From Planctomycetota bacterium (GTDB taxonomy: Bacteria > Planctomycetota > Phycisphaerae > UBA1845): a stretch of DNA of 53,575 nt. The notes beneath the pieces were generated by a model that was not told the DNA's origin, ran no database searches, and saw only the letters and a program-made list of their open reading frames with translations. The DNA lies in contig JAUWWQ010000029.1 of the NCBI GenBank assembly GCA_030616775.1, positions 1-53,575 of the forward strand. Direction: 5' to 3'. Both the position numbers and the translations under genes were made by a program. Below are positions 20,214 through 28,150 of the stretch, one piece after another (position 1 is the first letter of the stretch; each line of letters starts with the position of its first letter).

Positions 20214-21323
20214 ATGGCCATTCGAGTTCCGTTATTCTGGATTATGGCGTTGTGGGTGTCTGCGATCTTGGGGCAGGCTGTTGAGCCTTCGGAGCCTCCG
20301 CGTCAACAGGCAGAGCCTGCCCAAAACGCCGCTATCCAAGAGACATCGACCGAATCCGCCATCGGCGTTGACCAAGCGGTTCATCTGGCGATCGATGCTC
20401 TTGACCGCTTGGAGGCCCGGGACGAAAGTGACGCGCTTGTGCCACTTACGGATGAGGCCAACCGCTACATCGAGGTTGTGGAGGCCAAGGACGCCGCCAA
20501 TCCCTGGCTTCCCTATCTATATGGTCGAGCCTATGCCATTATGGGGCGGCGGGGGGATGCCGTTGACCAGCTTGTCAAGTTCGTCGAGACGCGGGAAGGC
20601 CGAAACGAATGGCGGGCCTACCGACTCCTCGGGGACCTGTTCGTCGATGAGTTTCCGCGGCTTGCCAAGGCCAACTACCAAAAGGCCAAGGTGCTGAATC
20701 CGGCCGAGCCGACGGTGTTGTTCGGCCTGTCTGTGTGTGCGTTCAAACTTGGTGACGTCGAGGGAGCGATTTCCTTGGCGCGGGAAGCGCTTCAAGTCGA
20801 TGGGGTGCAGACGGTCCGGTACGTCTCGCATCTCGCAGCGCTGCTCAGCGCCGACGGGCAGTCGAATGAGGCATTTAAGGAGGCACAGCGGGCCCTGGCC
20901 CTGGCACGGACCTCCATGCAGGCCGAGCTCGGTTCTCACGGTCCGCTGCTTGTGGTTGATGCTCAATACCAGCAGATCATCGACATTCTGCAGGCCCGCG
21001 TAAACGAGCCGGCTCACACGGACATCAGCGACTATATCCGTCTGGCCGCGTCCGTTCGACAGCGAGCTCAGATCAGGCAGATGCTAATGCTTCACGATGT
21101 GCTGCGCGTCGTCGAGGCCGGGGTAGACAAAACCTCGCCCGACACGCCGCCGGCTCTGTTGGAACAGTATGGGATAGTCCTTGCCGAGGTAGGGCGCACC
21201 GATGCTGCCATTGGAGTATTCGAAAGGCTCTTGGGTGTGGACTCCGACAATAGCGTTGCGACCGAGTGGCTAAGCCGCCTGCGACCCGATTCAGTCAAAT
21301 CTCAGCAAGCCGAAGAACCGTAA
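20214..21323 (+). CDS. exported TPR protein
   Basis: A 369-aa protein with a Sec signal peptide (MAIRVPLFWIMALWVSAILG) from the ATG at 20214, with GGAG 8 nt upstream. An in-frame start at 20139 would bury the signal. After a Pro/Gln/Ala-rich linker the rest is helical TPR repeats: WLPYLYGRAYAIMGRRGDAV, NYQKAKVLNPAEPTVLFGL, FKLGDVEGAISLAREALQV, and the last LAEVGRTDAAIGVFERLLGV. TPRs mediate protein-protein contacts, and no partner is indicated. Its stop codon is followed in the same frame by a broken FTCD fragment. It is not a recognised flagellar gene despite its position. Confidence 0.8.
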   Translation: MAIRVPLFWIMALWVSAILGQAVEPSEPPRQQAEPAQNAAIQETSTESAIGVDQAVHLAIDALDRLEARDESDALVPLTDEANRYIEVVEAKDAANPWLPYLYGRAYAIMGRRGDAVDQLVKFVETREGRNEWRAYRLLGDLFVDEFPRLAKANYQKAKVLNPAEPTVLFGLSVCAFKLGDVEGAISLAREALQVDGVQTVRYVSHLAALLSADGQSNEAFKEAQRALALARTSMQAELGSHGPLLVVDAQYQQIIDILQARVNEPAHTDISDYIRLAASVRQRAQIRQMLMLHDVLRVVEAGVDKTSPDTPPALLEQYGIVLAEVGRTDAAIGVFERLLGVDSDNSVATEWLSRLRPDSVKSQQAEEP

Positions 21324-21326
21324 GGT

Positions 21327-21653
21327 ATCCCTTTTGCGCGTTCCACGGAACCGGCAGATGGTAAGAAAGACATCGAAGTGCCTTTTCGCGTCATGAAGAC
21401 CTCGCTAAGATGCATGGAAGTGTGCAAGGCCATCGCCGAGATCGGCAACCGCCCCTCAGTCTCCGATGCCGGGGTCGGCGACATCGCCGCCCGTTCAGCC
21501 GTCATGGGTGCGTATCTCAACGTCAGAATTAATTCCGCCGGCGTGGAATATAAGAAGTGGATGGACGACATCCTCACTCGCGGCACCGAGATCCAAGAAA
21601 AAGCCATCGCCCTCGAACACGAGATCGTGGAGATTGTGAACGGGAAACTGTAG
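21327..21653 (+). pseudogene. C-terminal fragment of an FTCD_C-type cyclodeaminase
   Basis: The frame from about 21327 reads like the tail of formimidoyl-tetrahydrofolate cyclodeaminase / methenyl-THF cyclohydrolase (FTCD_C, FchA): EVPFRVMKTSLRCMEVCKAI, GNRPSVSDAGVGDIAARSAV, MGAYLNVRIN. Only about 100 residues remain, against roughly 200 for the domain. The N-terminal half is absent. The upstream in-frame stop is the TAA of the TPR gene. A GTG at 21378 could start a 91-aa peptide, but that would be half a helical bundle. I read it as a remnant left by deletion at the left border of the accessory island. Expression as a short protein is not excluded. Confidence 0.7.
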
Positions 21654-21772
21654 TCTCGAACCGAGTTTGCGTAGCTCACTCGGTTCATGACGTGAAATCC
21701 AACACCGGAATCATTTGAGCCAAATGGTCAGCAACGGCAGTCCCGTCGTGCTTGCATGGAGGGAGTTGTGTT

Positions 21773-24112
21773 ATGGACGTCTCCTTATACGGGCAGATCG
21801 TGGCACTACGCGATCTCACCAATGCGCCCAAGCGAGGTTATCGGTTTGAGCAAGCCCTTCGTGAGATCTTGCCTTGGACCTCGCGCCCGCCGCTCACGGC
21901 GAGTGGACAATCTGAGCAGTTCGATGCGTTCTACGAGTGGAACAGGAGGTTCTATCTGGTTGAGGCGAAAGCGAAGAGACCTATCATCAAGCAGGGTGCT
22001 TCCGAGTGGGAAGATTTCGAACTCAAGCTGCGCCGGCGACAGGGGAGTGTTGTCGGCCTCTTCTGCAGTTTGTGGCCTGTTCACGAAAATGTTATCGATG
22101 CCGCGAGACGGATGAATGAAGGTGCAGTTCCAGCGATCGTTCTTGCGGGAGGTATATGGGACGAACTCACTGAGATGCCTTTGCCATTCGGCGACGTTCT
22201 CCAGTATTGCTTGTATCACGCGCACACCAAGCATTCGGCAACACCTCCCGCCTTGAAGGCCGTACAGGAGTGGTGTTACGAACGATCCTCCACAGAAGCC
22301 CACGTACGCGACGTGTGTTGTAAGAAGTCTGGGACCTTCCTCCGTAGATACCGTTTGCCGAAGCATTCCGAGCTGTATGTTCCACGGGCGCTTGATGAAT
22401 ACGCTGGTGCGCTTGCCGACTCGTTGCGTCCTTCGTTGCTTAGAAGGCAAGTACGCAAACATAAGCATGGTAAGGAAATTGTGGAAGTCAAGCGTGAGGC
22501 ACCACGACAAGTATGCGTGATACGCGATTTGTCAGGATGCGGGAAGACGATGTTCGTCGTCAATCTAGCGCTACAGTCGCCCAAATGGTTCTGCGTTGCG
22601 CGCGCCGCACTCGAGCCGGACATCGACGACCTCTATTCGATACTTCATGACGTTGGCAGAGAGGACGGGCTGTTCCATCTCTTATCGCTGGATAGGCCGA
22701 TGTTCTACGCTGTCGACTCTCTTGATGAGGCAGGACATATTCCGGAGAAGCGGCGCGAGTCAATTGCGATTCTACGAATAATCGATGACCTGAACACTAA
22801 GGCCCGGGCGGTAGGACTGCTCTGCTTCCCGATTGCCCTGGTTGTCACAGTGCGCGAGGACTACTGGCGCCACTGGCAATCTGTCTTCGAGGGGCGACCA
22901 TTGCTCACTTATCGCAAACGCCTGTCCAATTTCACCACACCAGAATTCGATGACGCGCTCCAACAGTACGCCACAACCTACCACTACACACCAACGACGA
23001 CGCCCACCGCTTCGGCACGCCGGCTGCTCAGCGTTCCCTTTAATCTGCTCGTCTTCTCGGAGGCTCACGAATATGCCGGGACGCTGTCATTTGCAGAGGT
23101 CTTTCCCGAGAACGTGCTGCATCTCTACTTCGCCAAGAAACGCGACGACATCCTTCGACGCCACATCCCCGGATTCGTAGGAGCCCAACTCATGCACGTT
23201 TGCGCTGAGTTGGCCGTCAAGGTTGCCAAAGCGCGTGCGAACCGCATTGCTCAAAGTGCGGTGCTTCAGGCCATCGGCGGGAGCTTTCCGACTCTGGCCC
23301 CCCTTGCCGAGGAGATCGTGCTCGCGCTTGTGTCTGAGCAGATCCTACTTCGAGACCCGGACAATCCGGATGAGCTACGGTTCCGCCATAACCGCGTAAT
23401 TGAGTACCTGATCGCATACCACATCGTCGCGACAGTGGAGGAACGACAAAACACGGACTGGCTTGACGAGGAGATTCGGGATCTGGTCGAATCGGAGCTG
23501 ATCACCATATACAGCATCCATGAATGCATCAAGTTTATGTGCAAGAGCGAGAAACCTGCTATCTATCGGCTGTTTGAAAAATACTACGCAAGCTCGAGCG
23601 AGTTAATGAAGATAACTCTCGCCCACTTGCGTCAAGACATAGCGTACGGTGGATTCACTGATCCGGACGATCTCAAGCTGATAGCAAAACACACACAGTC
23701 ATCGGATCCGGCAGGTTGCTGGGATTGCTTCTTTGTCTTGGCGGCACGGCGGAATAGTCAGCCTCCTGGGAAGATCGTAGAGGCATTTGATTTCGCTTGG
23801 ACGACTAACCCAAACTCAGTGGAGCGCTGGCGACTGCTCCACAAGCTTTGGGAGCGCGGCCTGCTTCTCAACGAGAGAGTCTTCCTTCGGATAACGGAAA
23901 GCGACTCGGCCAAGGAATGGCAGGTGTTCCTTGGATGCCTGTTAGAGTCGCCCGACCGTGAAGGTCTCGTGGAAATGTGGAACGAGTTCGGGGGCGGTGA
24001 GGTGCACCACAAGCTCAAAGCGCAATCCGGCGGCGAGTGGCGTCATGTCGATCGGCTACTCACAATCTTACTGGAGGGCAGGGACTACATACCTGGCGAA
24101 GCGCTATGGTGA
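21773..24112 (+). CDS. nuclease-STAND NTPase (putative anti-phage protein)
   Basis: A 779-aa protein starting at the ATG at 21773, with GGAGGGAG upstream. Residues 1-105 look like a PD-(D/E)xK nuclease domain: GYRFEQALREIL (Glu26), SEQFDAFYEW (Asp51), then FYLVEAKAK with Glu64 and Lys66, and VVGLFCSL. Next comes a STAND-type NTPase: P-loop IRDLSGCGKT (Gly255, Gly257, Lys258, Thr259), Walker B MFYAVDSLDEAG (Asp315, Asp318, Glu319), sensor VVTVREDYW (Arg361), and a winged-helix-like FRHNRVIEYLIAYHIV near 537-552. The last 200 residues are helical and could be the sensor. Order and logic match Avs/NACHT-like defence proteins, but it is far shorter than typical Avs proteins. The defence role is inferred. 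Confidence 0.78.
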   Translation: MDVSLYGQIVALRDLTNAPKRGYRFEQALREILPWTSRPPLTASGQSEQFDAFYEWNRRFYLVEAKAKRPIIKQGASEWEDFELKLRRRQGSVVGLFCSLWPVHENVIDAARRMNEGAVPAIVLAGGIWDELTEMPLPFGDVLQYCLYHAHTKHSATPPALKAVQEWCYERSSTEAHVRDVCCKKSGTFLRRYRLPKHSELYVPRALDEYAGALADSLRPSLLRRQVRKHKHGKEIVEVKREAPRQVCVIRDLSGCGKTMFVVNLALQSPKWFCVARAALEPDIDDLYSILHDVGREDGLFHLLSLDRPMFYAVDSLDEAGHIPEKRRESIAILRIIDDLNTKARAVGLLCFPIALVVTVREDYWRHWQSVFEGRPLLTYRKRLSNFTTPEFDDALQQYATTYHYTPTTTPTASARRLLSVPFNLLVFSEAHEYAGTLSFAEVFPENVLHLYFAKKRDDILRRHIPGFVGAQLMHVCAELAVKVAKARANRIAQSAVLQAIGGSFPTLAPLAEEIVLALVSEQILLRDPDNPDELRFRHNRVIEYLIAYHIVATVEERQNTDWLDEEIRDLVESELITIYSIHECIKFMCKSEKPAIYRLFEKYYASSSELMKITLAHLRQDIAYGGFTDPDDLKLIAKHTQSSDPAGCWDCFFVLAARRNSQPPGKIVEAFDFAWTTNPNSVERWRLLHKLWERGLLLNERVFLRITESDSAKEWQVFLGCLLESPDREGLVEMWNEFGGGEVHHKLKAQSGGEWRHVDRLLTILLEGRDYIPGEALW

Positions 24113-24225
24113 CAGGGCCGACTGTGCGGTCTCTCGGCGTCCCGGGTGCCATGCTGAAGCCGAAGGCGCTGGCATGATTCATTGGCACGAGTCCACGTGA
24201 CCGCACTCCGCTTGGACATGGCACG

Positions 24226-24267
24226 CACCCCTCTCCCTTGCAGGGAGAGGGGCAGGGGGTGAGGGTG
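24226..24267 (+). repeat. palindromic GC-rich repeat, copy A
   Basis: A 42-bp unit: a perfect inverted repeat CCCCTCTCCC-ttgca-GGGAGAGGGG followed by a GGGGGTGAGGGTG tail. It lies 114 bp after the STAND gene. The same unit recurs at 24550-24591 and 25160-25201. Related inverted-orientation copies (CCCTCCCCCTGAGAGGGGGAGGG and variant) lie near 24373-24410 and 24976-25011. The family resembles the palindromic repeats often found around DUF559 genes. Confidence 0.85.
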
Positions 24268-24362
24268 CAGTGGTTCTGGCATCGAGGGCGCACCACGCCC
24301 ATGACCATGCAAGGATGCGGGTGGCGGTGTACGTTGGGCGGTCACGGACTCGAACGGTATCT

Positions 24363-24595
24363 GTAAGTCTCCACCCCCACCCTGCCCTCCCCCTGAGAGG
24401 GGGAGGGGTAAAGCGAACCGCAAGCGTTTGACGGGTGGCAGGCGGGCTCGTTATGAGTGGTTCGGCGTTGTCCTTGCTGCCGGGTGGCACGGTTGACACG
24501 GAGCATGGCCACGTGTGGTATCGTGAGAGGAACGGGTGCGGCAGTCTTACACCCCTCTCCCTTGCAGGGAGAGGGGCTGGGGGTGAGGGTGGGAA
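24363..24595 (+). repeat. left ~235-bp direct repeat flanking the DUF559 gene
   Basis: This segment and 24966-25203 are long, nearly identical direct repeats. Each starts GTARGTCTC, contains an inverted-orientation palindrome, then the same body (AAGCGTTTGACGGGTGGCAG, TTATGAGTGGTTCGGCGTTG), and ends with a forward palindrome copy and GAA-ATG. The copy here leads straight into the DUF559 start codon. The GAGGGTGGG tail of the palindrome doubles as its ribosome binding site. Confidence 0.85.
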
Positions 24596-24961
24596 ATGAC
24601 GAATGAGAAGCGTCATCGAGTGCCACCAAAGATGACGGAACGAGCGCGTGATCTGCGGCGCGAGGCTACGTTTCCTGAGCGCCTGTTATGGAGTCGGTTG
24701 CGCGACGGTCAATTAGAAGGGACGCGCTTTCGTCGCCAACATGTGATCGGTCCGTATGTTGCTGACTTCTACTGTGCGAAGCACAATCTCGTGATCGAGC
24801 TCGACGGACACAGTCATGACACAACGGCACAAGCTGATCTCCGAAGGGAAGAGTATCTGAAGGAGCAAGGATGTCGGATTGTCCGGTTCAGGAACGACGA
24901 GGTGATTGAGAATATCGATGGTGTCCTGGATGCCATCTCGAATGCGGTTGCCGAGACCTGA
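24596..24961 (+). CDS. DUF559 (Vsr-like) endonuclease
   Basis: A 121-aa protein of the DUF559 family, a PD-(D/E)xK nuclease fold related to the very-short-patch repair endonuclease. Signature segments are the TERARDLRREATFPERLLWS leader, RFRRQHVIGPYVADFYC (Asp57), LVIELDGHSHD (Glu68 and Asp70), and the tail GCRIVRFRNDEVIENIDGVL. All expected catalytic acidic residues are present and the length is complete. It is enclosed by 235-240-bp direct repeats made of palindromes. This arrangement suggests that gene and repeats form one unit, as REP sequences do with their RAYT transposases. The biological activity of DUF559 proteins is not established. Confidence 0.9.
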   Translation: MTNEKRHRVPPKMTERARDLRREATFPERLLWSRLRDGQLEGTRFRRQHVIGPYVADFYCAKHNLVIELDGHSHDTTAQADLRREEYLKEQGCRIVRFRNDEVIENIDGVLDAISNAVAET

Positions 24962-24965
24962 GTTC

Positions 24966-25203
24966 GTAGGTCTCTACCCCCACCCTGCCCTCCCCCTGGG
25001 AGGGGGAGGGATAAAGCGGACCGCAAGCGTTTGACGGGTGGCAGGCGGGCTCGTTATGAGTGGTTCGGCGTTGTCTTTGCTGCCGGGTGGTATCCGCCTC
25101 CGGCGGACGCTTGCGTGGCCATCTGTGGCATCGTGAGAGGAACGCGTGCGGCGGTCTTGCACCCCTCTCCCTCGCAGGGAGAGGGGCTAGGGGTGAGGGT
25201 GAA
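24966..25203 (+). repeat. right ~240-bp direct repeat flanking the DUF559 gene
   Basis: The second copy of the long direct repeat, beginning 4 bp after the DUF559 stop and ending at the start codon of the next gene. It differs from the left copy by scattered substitutions and one block swap: TCCGCC-tcc-GGCGGA, a small hairpin, replaces about 15 bp of the left copy. Because both copies end at GAA-ATG, the pair looks like a duplicated leader, with the DUF559 unit inserted before the downstream gene. Confidence 0.85.
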
Positions 25204-26166
25204 ATGGTGGTCAAGCGGCATCTTGAAGCGTTCCACGAGACCAGTCGGAAGCTGGACTTCATGGGCCCCATGGAGTCTTTGCTGAACGAATTCCGCCGGG
25301 GGAACATTGCGGACAAGAATCGCGTCCAAGAAGCATCAGCCATTCAATCTCACCTCGGAGAACACTACGAGGCATGGGACCACGTCTTTCCAAGGTTTCC
25401 CGAATGCCCCTGGAAGCGGCGCACGATCACCTGGGAGAATCACAGAGGCCGGAGAGACGCCTACCTGGAGCATCTGATCGTCACCCATGTACCGCAGCAC
25501 GAGGCCGGAAATCGCCTCATCATCAATCCCGCCACTGTGGCCGGCATGCATGCCAGAAGGCTGGCCCATAAGCTGCCCGCCTATGAGGTCCTCGGAACTG
25601 ACATTGACCCTCGGTGGAACCGCCTTTATCGATTGGTGCTCTTCTGGAAATATCGCCAACTGAGAAACTATCGATTCGTGCGAGAGAACATCTATGATCC
25701 GGATCTGGAGCGACACCCGGCCGCCGTTGTCTTCTTTGGCGCCTGCGGTTCCGTGACCGACGGATGCATGGACTACGCCATAGCCGTGAGGTCACCCTTT
25801 TTGATCTGCAGGTCCTGCTGCCATGACAACATCGGGGGCAATACGCAGATCGTGAGGCGACGGGGCCGCCCGATCAACGATTTCTTCGCATGGAAGAACT
25901 ACTGGTTCGCGAAATACAAGAAAAAAGGGAAGGGCTTCTACTTCTCGGATCGCTACGTCAAGGACGCCTACCCCAGAAGCAAGGCGGCACGGGAAATCAT
26001 GGACTCCGACACGATCATCGCCGCCGCCCGGAATTCGCCGGAGAGTGACATTTGCAGAAGCCTGATTGACCTCGACCGGTGCCTGTTCCTGCGAGAGAAC
26101 GGCTACGATGTCATGTATCGCGAGGAGCTCTTCTTTGCTCACAGACGGCGCGAAGCCTCCGGTTGA
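25204..26166 (+). CDS. methyltransferase-like protein of unknown family
   Basis: A 320-aa protein if it starts at the ATG right after the repeat. A longer frame from 25060 would translate the repeat itself (PLSLAGRGARGEGE) and is rejected. The middle resembles a class I SAM-dependent methyltransferase: LIINPATVAGMHARRLAHKL (Gly-poor motif I), VLGTDIDPRWNRLY (acidic end of strand 2), FVRENIYDPD, then AAVVFFGACGSVTDGCMDYA and the striking FLICRSCCHDNIGGNTQIVR. Cys/His residues at that last position recall RNA/protein methyltransferases with a PCCH-type motif. The N-terminal 100 residues are charged helices. The substrate is unknown and the methyltransferase reading is tentative. It follows the DUF559 unit in the island. 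Confidence 0.6.
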   Translation: MVVKRHLEAFHETSRKLDFMGPMESLLNEFRRGNIADKNRVQEASAIQSHLGEHYEAWDHVFPRFPECPWKRRTITWENHRGRRDAYLEHLIVTHVPQHEAGNRLIINPATVAGMHARRLAHKLPAYEVLGTDIDPRWNRLYRLVLFWKYRQLRNYRFVRENIYDPDLERHPAAVVFFGACGSVTDGCMDYAIAVRSPFLICRSCCHDNIGGNTQIVRRRGRPINDFFAWKNYWFAKYKKKGKGFYFSDRYVKDAYPRSKAAREIMDSDTIIAAARNSPESDICRSLIDLDRCLFLRENGYDVMYREELFFAHRRREASG

Positions 26167-26370
26167 CGCCGGCATGGTTGAAGCGTTGGATGATGACCAC
26201 CCCGACCATGATTCTTCAAGGTGACCGGCTGCTGAATCAGCCTGTTACGTCACGAACGGCACCCGGCTCGACCCTTCCCGCACCACCTTAACCGGCCCGT
26301 TGCTTATGCAGCCGGGCTGCTGGCCGTAGAATCCGCCTCAGCCTTGCGTAAACGCCGTTTTTCGGCCTAG

Positions 26371-26434
26371 TTTGAGAATTCTGAAAACCCGCTTGACTTT
26401 CGTTCTCAATATTGCGAACATATAGGAGGCACGG
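26371..26434 (+). promoter_or_regulatory. toxin-antitoxin promoter with two dyad operators
   Basis: Two near-perfect palindromes precede the toxin gene: TTTGAGAATTCTGAAA (26371-26386) and GTTCTCAATATTGCGAAC (26402-26419, one mismatched pair). They share the half-site TTGAGAA / TTCTCAA. A -35-like TTGACT at 26393-26398 lies between them; the -10 is weak (GAACAT at 26416-26421, 17-bp spacer). GGAGG at 26425-26429 is the toxin ribosome site. This is where an HTH antitoxin would bind to autoregulate. Confidence 0.65.
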
Positions 26435-26809
26435 ATGCCGCGAACCGAGGTCATCCTCTTCAAGGAGGACGACAAGAGCGTGCCGCTCGTGGAATGGCTT
26501 GAATCCGCTCCCAAGAAGCCGCAGGCGAAGTGCGTCGCCGCACTCGCCCGGCTTGAGGAACTCGGCCACGAACTGCGTCGCCCCGAGGCGGATTACCTCC
26601 GGGACGACATCTATGAGCTTCGCGTCCGGTTTCAGAGCGTGAATTACCGCATGCTCTACTTCTTCCACGGACGAGCTGTCGCAGTCGTGTCACACGGCTG
26701 CACGAAAGAGCGAGCGGTCCCAAAACGAGAAATCGACGCTGCCGTCAAACGAAAAGAGCGGTTTGAGAAAGAACCAAAGAAGCACAGCGAACGATTCACG
26801 AAGGGTTAA
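26435..26809 (+). CDS. RelE/HigB-type toxin (Gp49-like)
   Basis: A 124-aa toxin of the phage-derived Gp49/HigB group, ribosome-dependent mRNA interferases. Recognisable parts are VPLVEWLESAPKKPQAKCVA, LEELGHELRRPEADYLRDDI, YELRVRFQSVNYRMLYFFHG, then HGCTKERAVPKREIDAAVKR. The basic residues of the Y-E-LR-R-NYR core are those expected on the RNA-binding face. GGAGG lies 5 nt before the ATG. The antitoxin starts 2 bp after its stop, so toxin precedes antitoxin as in higBA. The C-terminal tail is Lys/Glu-rich. Full length, no sign of decay. Confidence 0.87.
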   Translation: MPRTEVILFKEDDKSVPLVEWLESAPKKPQAKCVAALARLEELGHELRRPEADYLRDDIYELRVRFQSVNYRMLYFFHGRAVAVVSHGCTKERAVPKREIDAAVKRKERFEKEPKKHSERFTKG

Positions 26810-26811
26810 CG

Positions 26812-27153
26812 ATGCCTGCACGAAAAAGCAAAAAGCAGAAGCCATCCTCCCCGGCCCTAAAGCACCTCCATAAACGTTTCATCGAGGGCGACGCCGAGCA
26901 GGAGGCCGCCTACGAAGAGCACCTCGCAAACGCCGAGATTGCCCGCAAGCTCTACGACCTACGCGATAAAGCGGGGCTCAGCCAGCGCGAACTGGCCAAG
27001 CTCGTCGGCACTTCCGCGTCGGTCATCTGTCGCCTTGAGGATGCGGACTACAACGGCCACTCGCTCTCCATGCTCCAGCGCATCGCGGCCGTGCTCGACA
27101 AGCGCGTGGAAATCCGTTTTGTCCCTGTGCGGCGGAAAGCACAACCCGCTTGA
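26812..27153 (+). CDS. HigA-like XRE antitoxin
   Basis: A 113-aa partner of the preceding toxin. Residues 50-105 are a Cro/C1-type helix-turn-helix: IARKLYDLRDKAGLSQRELA, KLVGTSASVICRLEDADYNG, SLSMLQRIAAVLDKRVEIRF. The first 45 residues are basic then acidic helices likely to wrap the toxin. It should bind the two dyads upstream of the toxin gene and repress the operon. A longer frame on the same strand but another phase runs through its 3' half and is a shadow. Just downstream lies a dead tyrosine recombinase, so the module probably arrived with a mobile element. Confidence 0.87.
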   Translation: MPARKSKKQKPSSPALKHLHKRFIEGDAEQEAAYEEHLANAEIARKLYDLRDKAGLSQRELAKLVGTSASVICRLEDADYNGHSLSMLQRIAAVLDKRVEIRFVPVRRKAQPA

Positions 27154-27172
27154 CCTTCACCTTGGCCGCAGT

Positions 27173-27552
27173 TTACGCCGCTTGGTGCAGGATCAGGTGC
27201 TCCTGGAAGGCTTGAACCTCCTTCACGGACACGGTGCACATGCGCCACGACTCAGCGGGCCAATCGAAGTCCACGAATTTGATAAAGGATTCCACGTCCT
27301 GGCGGTAGGCGCACTAGGTGTACGGACTCCGGCGACGCGCGACCCAGGCCTCAAAGAGCTGCGCCAGCGACGCGTAGGACTTCTCGACACGGAGGCGTGT
27401 CTCGGGCGTCAGATGGCCAACGAGCACCGGCGGAACCTCCATCCGATTGTTTGCGACCGTGGACCGGAGCTCCCCGCGCGCAGCGCGGAGGAGACGGTAG
27501 TTGTCAGCCGGGAACCCGACTTCGCGGGAGGGAGTGACCCTCTCTGTACACC
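27173..27552 (-). pseudogene. broken tyrosine recombinase (N-terminal SAM-like domain)
   Basis: The minus strand here reads EVGFPADNYRLLRAARGELR, then MEVPPVLVGHLTPETRLRVE, FEAWVARRRSPYT, an in-frame TAG, then CAYRQDVESFIKFVDFDWPA, ESWRMCTVSVKEVQAFQEHL and a TAA at 27173-27175. The segment from SPYT on matches the core-binding N-terminal domain of XerC/phage-type integrases (a helical YRxDLxxFxxFL start, then VxDVQAFxxHL). The catalytic domain is missing and the TAG falls where serine, arginine or similar would normally be. No start codon exists before 27442. A decayed integrase next to the toxin-antitoxin pair marks a former mobile element. Confidence 0.72.
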
Positions 27553-27562
27553 TTCAGGACGG

Positions 27563-28150
27563 TTAGGACTTGAAGGATCGCACCTTCTGGTCGGTCACCA
27601 GCATATCGACGTGGCGGTCGAGCGGTCCGGCGGGGACCGAGGCTGTCATCTGTTCCTCAAAGGCCAATGCGCAGGCCAGGCCTTTGAATTCAGGATGGGC
27701 AAGGAAGCGGTCATAGAAGCCGCGGCCCCGGCCTAGACGGTGGCCGTACTGATCGAATCCCAGCCCTGGAACGATCACCAGATCGATCATCGAAATTGGA
27801 AATGGAATTCCGGAAACCGGCTCACGAATGCCCATGTGCGAAACGGCCAGATCCTCGGTCAGCGACCGGATCTCAACAGGCATCATACGCCGCTGGCTCC
27901 AGCTCACCTTCGGTGCCAGGATCCGCTTTTGATCCTGCCACGCTCGAAGCACCAGCGGGGATGTATCAATCTCGGCAGGCAGTGAGAGAAACACCATGAT
28001 CACTTCGGCCTTGACGTACTGCGGCTGCTCGAACAGCCGATGGCAGGCGCGGAGCGACTTGGTTTCCAGCTCTTCGGGTGGGATTTCGGTCAGGATTTTG
28101 CGAAGCCGCTGGCGTAGTTCTTTCTTTACAGACAAATCGGTCACTCGCAA
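27563..28150 (-). CDS. 5-formyltetrahydrofolate cyclo-ligase
   Basis: Converts 5-formyl-THF plus ATP to 5,10-methenyl-THF, returning a storage or inhibitory folate to the one-carbon pool. At 195 aa it is the normal size. Signatures are the N-terminal ELRQRLRKIL helix, VIMVFLSLPAEIDTSPLVLR, RILAPKVSWSQRRMM, MGIREPVSG, and the nucleotide-binding loop IDLVIVPGLGFDQYGHRLGR followed by GRGFYDRFL (residues 128-150). It starts 15 bp after the rarA stop on the same strand, so the two probably share a transcript. Intact, with no unusual residues noticed. Confidence 0.93.
   Translation of the reverse strand: MRVTDLSVKKELRQRLRKILTEIPPEELETKSLRACHRLFEQPQYVKAEVIMVFLSLPAEIDTSPLVLRAWQDQKRILAPKVSWSQRRMMPVEIRSLTEDLAVSHMGIREPVSGIPFPISMIDLVIVPGLGFDQYGHRLGRGRGFYDRFLAHPEFKGLACALAFEEQMTASVPAGPLDRHVDMLVTDQKVRSFKS

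Follow-up and report, generated by a model that had tools for sequence, protein, structure and literature searches.

The window, as we call the whole stretch of 53,575 nucleotides analysed here from contig JAUWWQ010000029.1 of a Planctomycetota bacterium, contains a long gene located between flagellar genes and a block comprising 5-formyl-THF cyclo-ligase, AAA and glmS genes (names taken from the translations). An earlier note, made from the letters alone, had described it as encoding a protein of 779 residues, and the open reading frame is indeed real: a GGAGGG box is found shortly 5' of its ATG, and a chance frame of this length would occur with p ~2e-14 at the base composition of the window (Table 1). 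The gene is single-copy in its own genome. With 55.2% GC and 63% GC3 in a window of 60% GC, it has the lowest GC and the fifth-lowest GC3 among the 27 long open reading frames, a composition compatible with a recent arrival, although no proof of it.

The same note had placed the gene in an island with a recombinase relict, a toxin-antitoxin pair and DUF559. The last two are there, DUF559 with a Pfam match at E 2e-38 and the pair as a HigB/Gp49 toxin with an HTH partner (HigBA-like). The relict was not found: the small upstream ORF (21378-21653) belongs to a 3' fragment of FTCD_C (formiminotransferase-cyclodeaminase; 21363-21653), an intact copy of which lies on another contig of the same genome, and no recombinase match was obtained among the ORFs of the region that were tested. 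This fragment is possibly the scar of an insertion or duplication. Nor is a clear defence island in the window supported, since just the DUF559 gene, a methyltransferase-like ORF (25060-26166, PF13679 at only E 0.0064) and the HigBA-like pair would count towards it. The DUF559 gene (24596-24961) is bracketed by a 229-nt direct repeat, 88% identical between its copies at 24363-24591 and 24966-25201, with a partial third copy at 24226-24267 and with CCCTCTCCCT/AGGGAGAGGG palindromes. As the repeat flanks this gene and has no other occurrence in the 4.4-Mb genome, DUF559 may here be encoded on a cassette that is mobile or was duplicated. Rfam reported no RNA in window positions 21000-27600.

Table 1. 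Features of the nuclease-NACHT gene, in window coordinates; "invariant" refers to the eight-member alignment described in the text
Feature	Coordinates	Strand	Basis
779-aa nuclease-NACHT protein (ATG to stop)	21773..24112	+	full-length homology to relatives (one truncated by a contig end); alignments
Predicted N-terminal PD-(D/E)XK nuclease domain, residues ~1-140	21773..22192	+	AlphaFold2; VIA-align
E26, catalytic helix residue (RGYxFEQ)	21848..21850	+	invariant
D51 (SEQxDxF), metal ligand	21923..21925	+	invariant; weak profile alignment to Can2 nuclease motif
E64-x-K66, ExK motif	21962..21970	+	invariant
Helical linker, residues ~141-235	22193..22477	+	secondary structure of the model
Predicted NACHT nucleotide-binding domain (NBD), residues ~236-390	22478..22942	+	Foldseek (Avs4, NLRC4, NLRP3); VIA-align (NLRP3, Z 14.9)
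P-loop RDLSGCGKT, residues 251-259	22523..22549	+	R251, D252, S254, G255, G257, K258, T259 invariant
Walker B DSLDE, residues 315-319, NACHT-type D[GAS]hDE	22715..22729	+	invariant
TxR sensor, residues 359-361	22847..22855	+	T359, R361 invariant
HD1 and winged-helix (WHD) region, residues ~391-557	22943..23443	+	model aligned to NLRs over ~173-652
HD2-like helices, residues ~558-640	23444..23692	+	model aligned to NLRs
Short C-terminal helical region, presumed sensor, residues ~641-779	23693..24109	+	helical in the model

A predicted nuclease joined to a NACHT module

All the motifs that had been named beforehand are found at their positions in the translation: E26, D51 and E64-x-K66, an SGCGKT ending at 259, VDSLDE at 314-319 and VREDYW at 360-365. 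In an alignment of eight members, in which the window protein is joined by five copies from Bacteroidota and one each from an alphaproteobacterium and the Acidobacteria, the nuclease residues E26, D51, E64 and K66 are invariant (8/8) within a family signature that reads RGYxFEQxIRE...SEQxDxF...ExKA...WEDFELKxRRR. The AlphaFold2 model of residues 1-165 (pLDDT 84, pTM 0.83) has as its nearest solved fold the nicking enzyme Nt.BspD6I (VIA-align Z 12.2, rmsd 3.6 over 158 residues), followed by R.BspD6I2 (Z 11.0), FokI (Z 9.4) and the N-terminus of Avs4 (Z 7.1), and it likewise resembles the Can2, Cdn1, McrC and MspJI-type nucleases. Foldseek matches to this model were weak (best 9.5e-3), and a profile search against PDB sequences placed Can2 on top at a weak E of 0.22, in an alignment touching the D51 motif, with one unrelated ribosomal protein as the only other match. 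With the core alpha-beta fold in the model and the E, D and (D/E)xK residues of the PD-(D/E)XK superfamily in place, residues ~1-140 are predicted to form such a nuclease, and the core proposed earlier from motifs is recovered by structure prediction.

The Mrr_cat family (PF04471) gave no match to the window protein in the Pfam scan; only stand-alone relatives of the N-terminal domain pass its cut-off, three small proteins at 7e-8, 8e-7 and 3e-9. Five stand-alone proteins of ~300-390 aa from Bacteroidota and Acidobacteriota share the nuclease domain, which occupies their C-terminal half and follows an N-terminal half without assigned domain.

Residues ~175-650 are modelled as an NLR-type NACHT module in which NBD, HD1, WHD and HD2 succeed one another, HD2 ending near residue 650. 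The full-length model was built on 7 sequences (pLDDT 78, pTM only 0.50); its top Foldseek match is Avs4 at 8e-7, followed by NLRC4, NLRP7, NLRP14 and NLRP3, and at that pTM of 0.50 VIA-align superposes NLRP3 with Z 14.9 and rmsd 6.6 over 369 residues, spanning 176-652. The motifs of bacterial NACHT proteins are also present, with the SGCGKT P-loop, DSLDE and TVR embedded in an invariant core, save that the Walker A motif is altered by an invariant Asp replacing its first glycine (RDxSGxGKT). A FRHxRxxEYL motif occurs at about 537-546 in the HD1/winged-helix region of the alignment, and like the DSLDE Walker B it is of NACHT type. The Pfam NACHT model gave no match to the window protein, and the highest-scoring relative still remains sub-threshold (E 0.0029, 17.9 bits against a cut-off of 26.7), and the NACHT assignment therefore rests on motifs and fold, which agree with the STAND-type P-loop NTPase of the earlier note. 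Since the nuclease and NACHT motifs are both invariant across the window, alphaproteobacterial, acidobacterial and five Bacteroidota copies, both predicted activities appear to be under selection.

Beyond HD2 the protein has just a short helical end, in which no Pfam domain was found. The compact single-protein layout with a helical C-terminus had been anticipated correctly, although the earlier figure of about 200 residues left for sensing comes down to ~140 because the NACHT module extends to near residue 650. Mean pairwise identity falls from 50% in the nuclease and 45% in the NBD to 31-32% in WHD, HD2 and the C-terminus, as one would expect of a presumed sensing end. The Azospirillum and Prevotella copies carry insertions of ~50 residues before HD2, and the Flavobacterium relative (L009:8001-11171) has an extra C-terminal DUF7829 (residues 837-1054, E 6e-30), a domain for which our literature search found no mention and which may be an added sensor. 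These differences indicate that the sensing end varies among the members.

A rare family scattered over several phyla

A tblastn search yielded one full-length relative, on plasmid AZO_p2 of Azospirillum lipoferum, typed as conjugative, and a search with the resulting two-sequence alignment over 84,980 species added seven loci, from a Chitinophagaceae bacterium, Mucilaginibacter, Puteibacter, two near-identical members of the Prevotella group, Flavobacterium and an Acidobacteria MAG, whose copy is cut by a contig end. Altogether, these are eight relatives, seven of them distinct, at 32-41% identity. A single-sequence scan of genome contigs, made before the alignment, gave no relative, and neither did a phage genome collection or three viral-contig scans, one of them with the single sequence. 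In a sample of 392 genomes from its own phylum the other 391 lack a copy; profile searches of Bacteroidota (395 genomes) and Acidobacteriota (297) recovered only the seeds as full-length copies, with nothing full-length beyond the seeds among 648 genomes of the seed orders and families (samples partly overlapping). Three weak matches at model positions ~102-203 in the Bacteroidota and Acidobacteriota samples are likely due to chance, since the ORF overlapping one of them resembles a radical-SAM methylthiotransferase. The family is thus rare and scattered, and present in at least four phyla. The Chitinophagaceae copy shares 44-54% identity with the Prevotella, Puteibacter and Flavobacterium copies, 64% with that of Mucilaginibacter and 61% with the acidobacterial one over the first 480 residues; this last pair fits with a copy having moved between phyla, although the short MAG contig may be mis-binned.

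Consistent housekeeping surroundings of the homologues, which the earlier note held would speak against a defence role, were not found. In Mucilaginibacter a complete Septu system lies ~1.3 kb upstream (PtuA 5e-107, PtuB 1e-67). The Chitinophagaceae relative has a convergent block (L003:10638-15471) encoding an LmuA/Avs1a-like MBL-fold protein, a 678-aa protein without assigned family and a patatin, which may represent a separate defence operon, and the acidobacterial relative stands head to head with another patatin, 26% identical to the former. In the Prevotella group the relative adjoins AbiEii, a metallophosphoesterase, an integrase, a two-component pair and a helicase, the last two of which recall CTnDOT-type elements. 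A reverse transcriptase neighbours the Puteibacter copy, and ordinary genes surround those of Flavobacterium and Azospirillum. Defence-type neighbours at four relatives and ordinary ones at two are a suggestive association, drawn from about seven independent loci without a background count.

Known systems and the proposed role

Bacteria employ proteins that couple a nuclease to an NLR-type switch to cut DNA and shut down the infected cell upon phage attack. No convincing match to the window protein was found among the models of Pfam, PADLOC, NCBIfam and PHROGs, nor among PDB sequences, and the PADLOC models, those for Avs included, gave none at E up to 1. However, its architecture is of a known kind. 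bNACHT25 and bNACHT32, antiphage proteins of bacterial NACHT clade 6, combine a PD-(D/E)XK DNase, a NACHT and an NCH1 helical C-terminus; their nuclease is required for defence, which D48A mutants lose, and their activation degrades DNA (PMC12169576). The window protein shares this order of N-terminal PD-(D/E)XK, central NACHT and helical C-terminus when compared by described architecture only, and differs in that its C-terminus lacks a detected Pfam domain. Avs1-4 also carry nuclease effectors and recognise phage DNA-packaging proteins (PMC12931631). Avs4 (AVAST type 4; PDB 8dgf), also a nuclease with a STAND NTPase, is the top Foldseek match, aligned over model residues 7-621, although its chain of 1541 residues compares with 779 here and most of its large sensor is missing from the window protein; the large repeat C-terminal sensor of Avs1-Avs5 is likewise absent, with only ~140 residues past HD2. 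A Mrr-NACHT fusion noted in 2007 (gi:68548712; PMC1913061) is, by its description, another protein with the same two domain types. In a similar way, animal NLRs such as NLRP3, NLRC4 and NOD2 share the NACHT-HD1-WHD-HD2 module (Z up to 14.9), at an identity of about 10-13%, whereas the window protein has neither their LRR nor their death-fold effector. The sequence family being in no library searched and its architecture known, we regard the protein, as judged from sequence, as a rare, previously uncatalogued family of a known kind; the earlier label of undescribed thus holds for the family but not for the kind, for which bNACHT25/32 and the Mrr-NACHT fusion are precedents. In this way, the bacterial NLR-like proteins would gain a coherent family that has escaped the protein-family and defence libraries searched here.

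We think it probable that the gene encodes a single-gene NLR-like antiphage protein, a compact abortive-infection system of bNACHT/Avs type whose nuclease is freed on oligomerisation. In the resting state the NACHT module would keep the N-terminal nuclease inactive. HD2 and the C-terminal helices would presumably read the infection cue, either on their own or by way of a host factor, the latter being the case in bNACHT25. The cue would then drive a nucleotide-dependent oligomerisation of the NACHT module, gathering the nuclease domains so that DNA, which we infer to be the substrate, would be cut, the phage stopped and the cell lost. Its small size would make the protein convenient for learning in what way infection is recognised when a NACHT protein has hardly any dedicated sensor. 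A bolder proposal, which we hold to be doubtful, is a separate clade of bacterial NLRs marked by a BspD6I/FokI-like nuclease and the altered Walker A, where sensing would fall to NACHT/HD2 with the ~140 final residues or to an unlinked host partner; were it true, the protein would be among the smaller self-contained nuclease NLRs.

The same nuclease-NACHT switch might be aimed at plasmids, conjugation or other mobile DNA, as the architecture is silent on the invader and two relatives lie on mobile elements (the conjugative-typed plasmid and an integrase-bearing element) where the exclusion of rivals would pay; the characterised bNACHT25/32 and Avs1-4 respond, however, to phage proteins (PMC12169576; PMC12931631), and we judge this target unlikely. 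Less likely still is a modification- or sequence-dependent restriction enzyme of the Mrr/McrBC sort, in which the NTPase would control or drive DNA cleavage without protein sensing. The nuclease domain is Mrr_cat-like and resembles those of BspD6I, FokI, McrC and MspJI-type enzymes, but Nt.BspD6I and FokI, its closest solved folds, are nicking and restriction enzymes with DNA-recognition domains and an identity of about 9-14%, whereas the Pfam scan detected no such domain here and the NTPase is NLR/NACHT-like with HD1-WHD-HD2 and not a helicase. A stress-regulated or developmental NACHT protein outside defence, for which the ordinary neighbours in Flavobacterium and Azospirillum and the flagellar and glmS flanks of the window would speak, is the hardest to credit, its extreme rarity and cross-phylum sequence relations being unfit for housekeeping.
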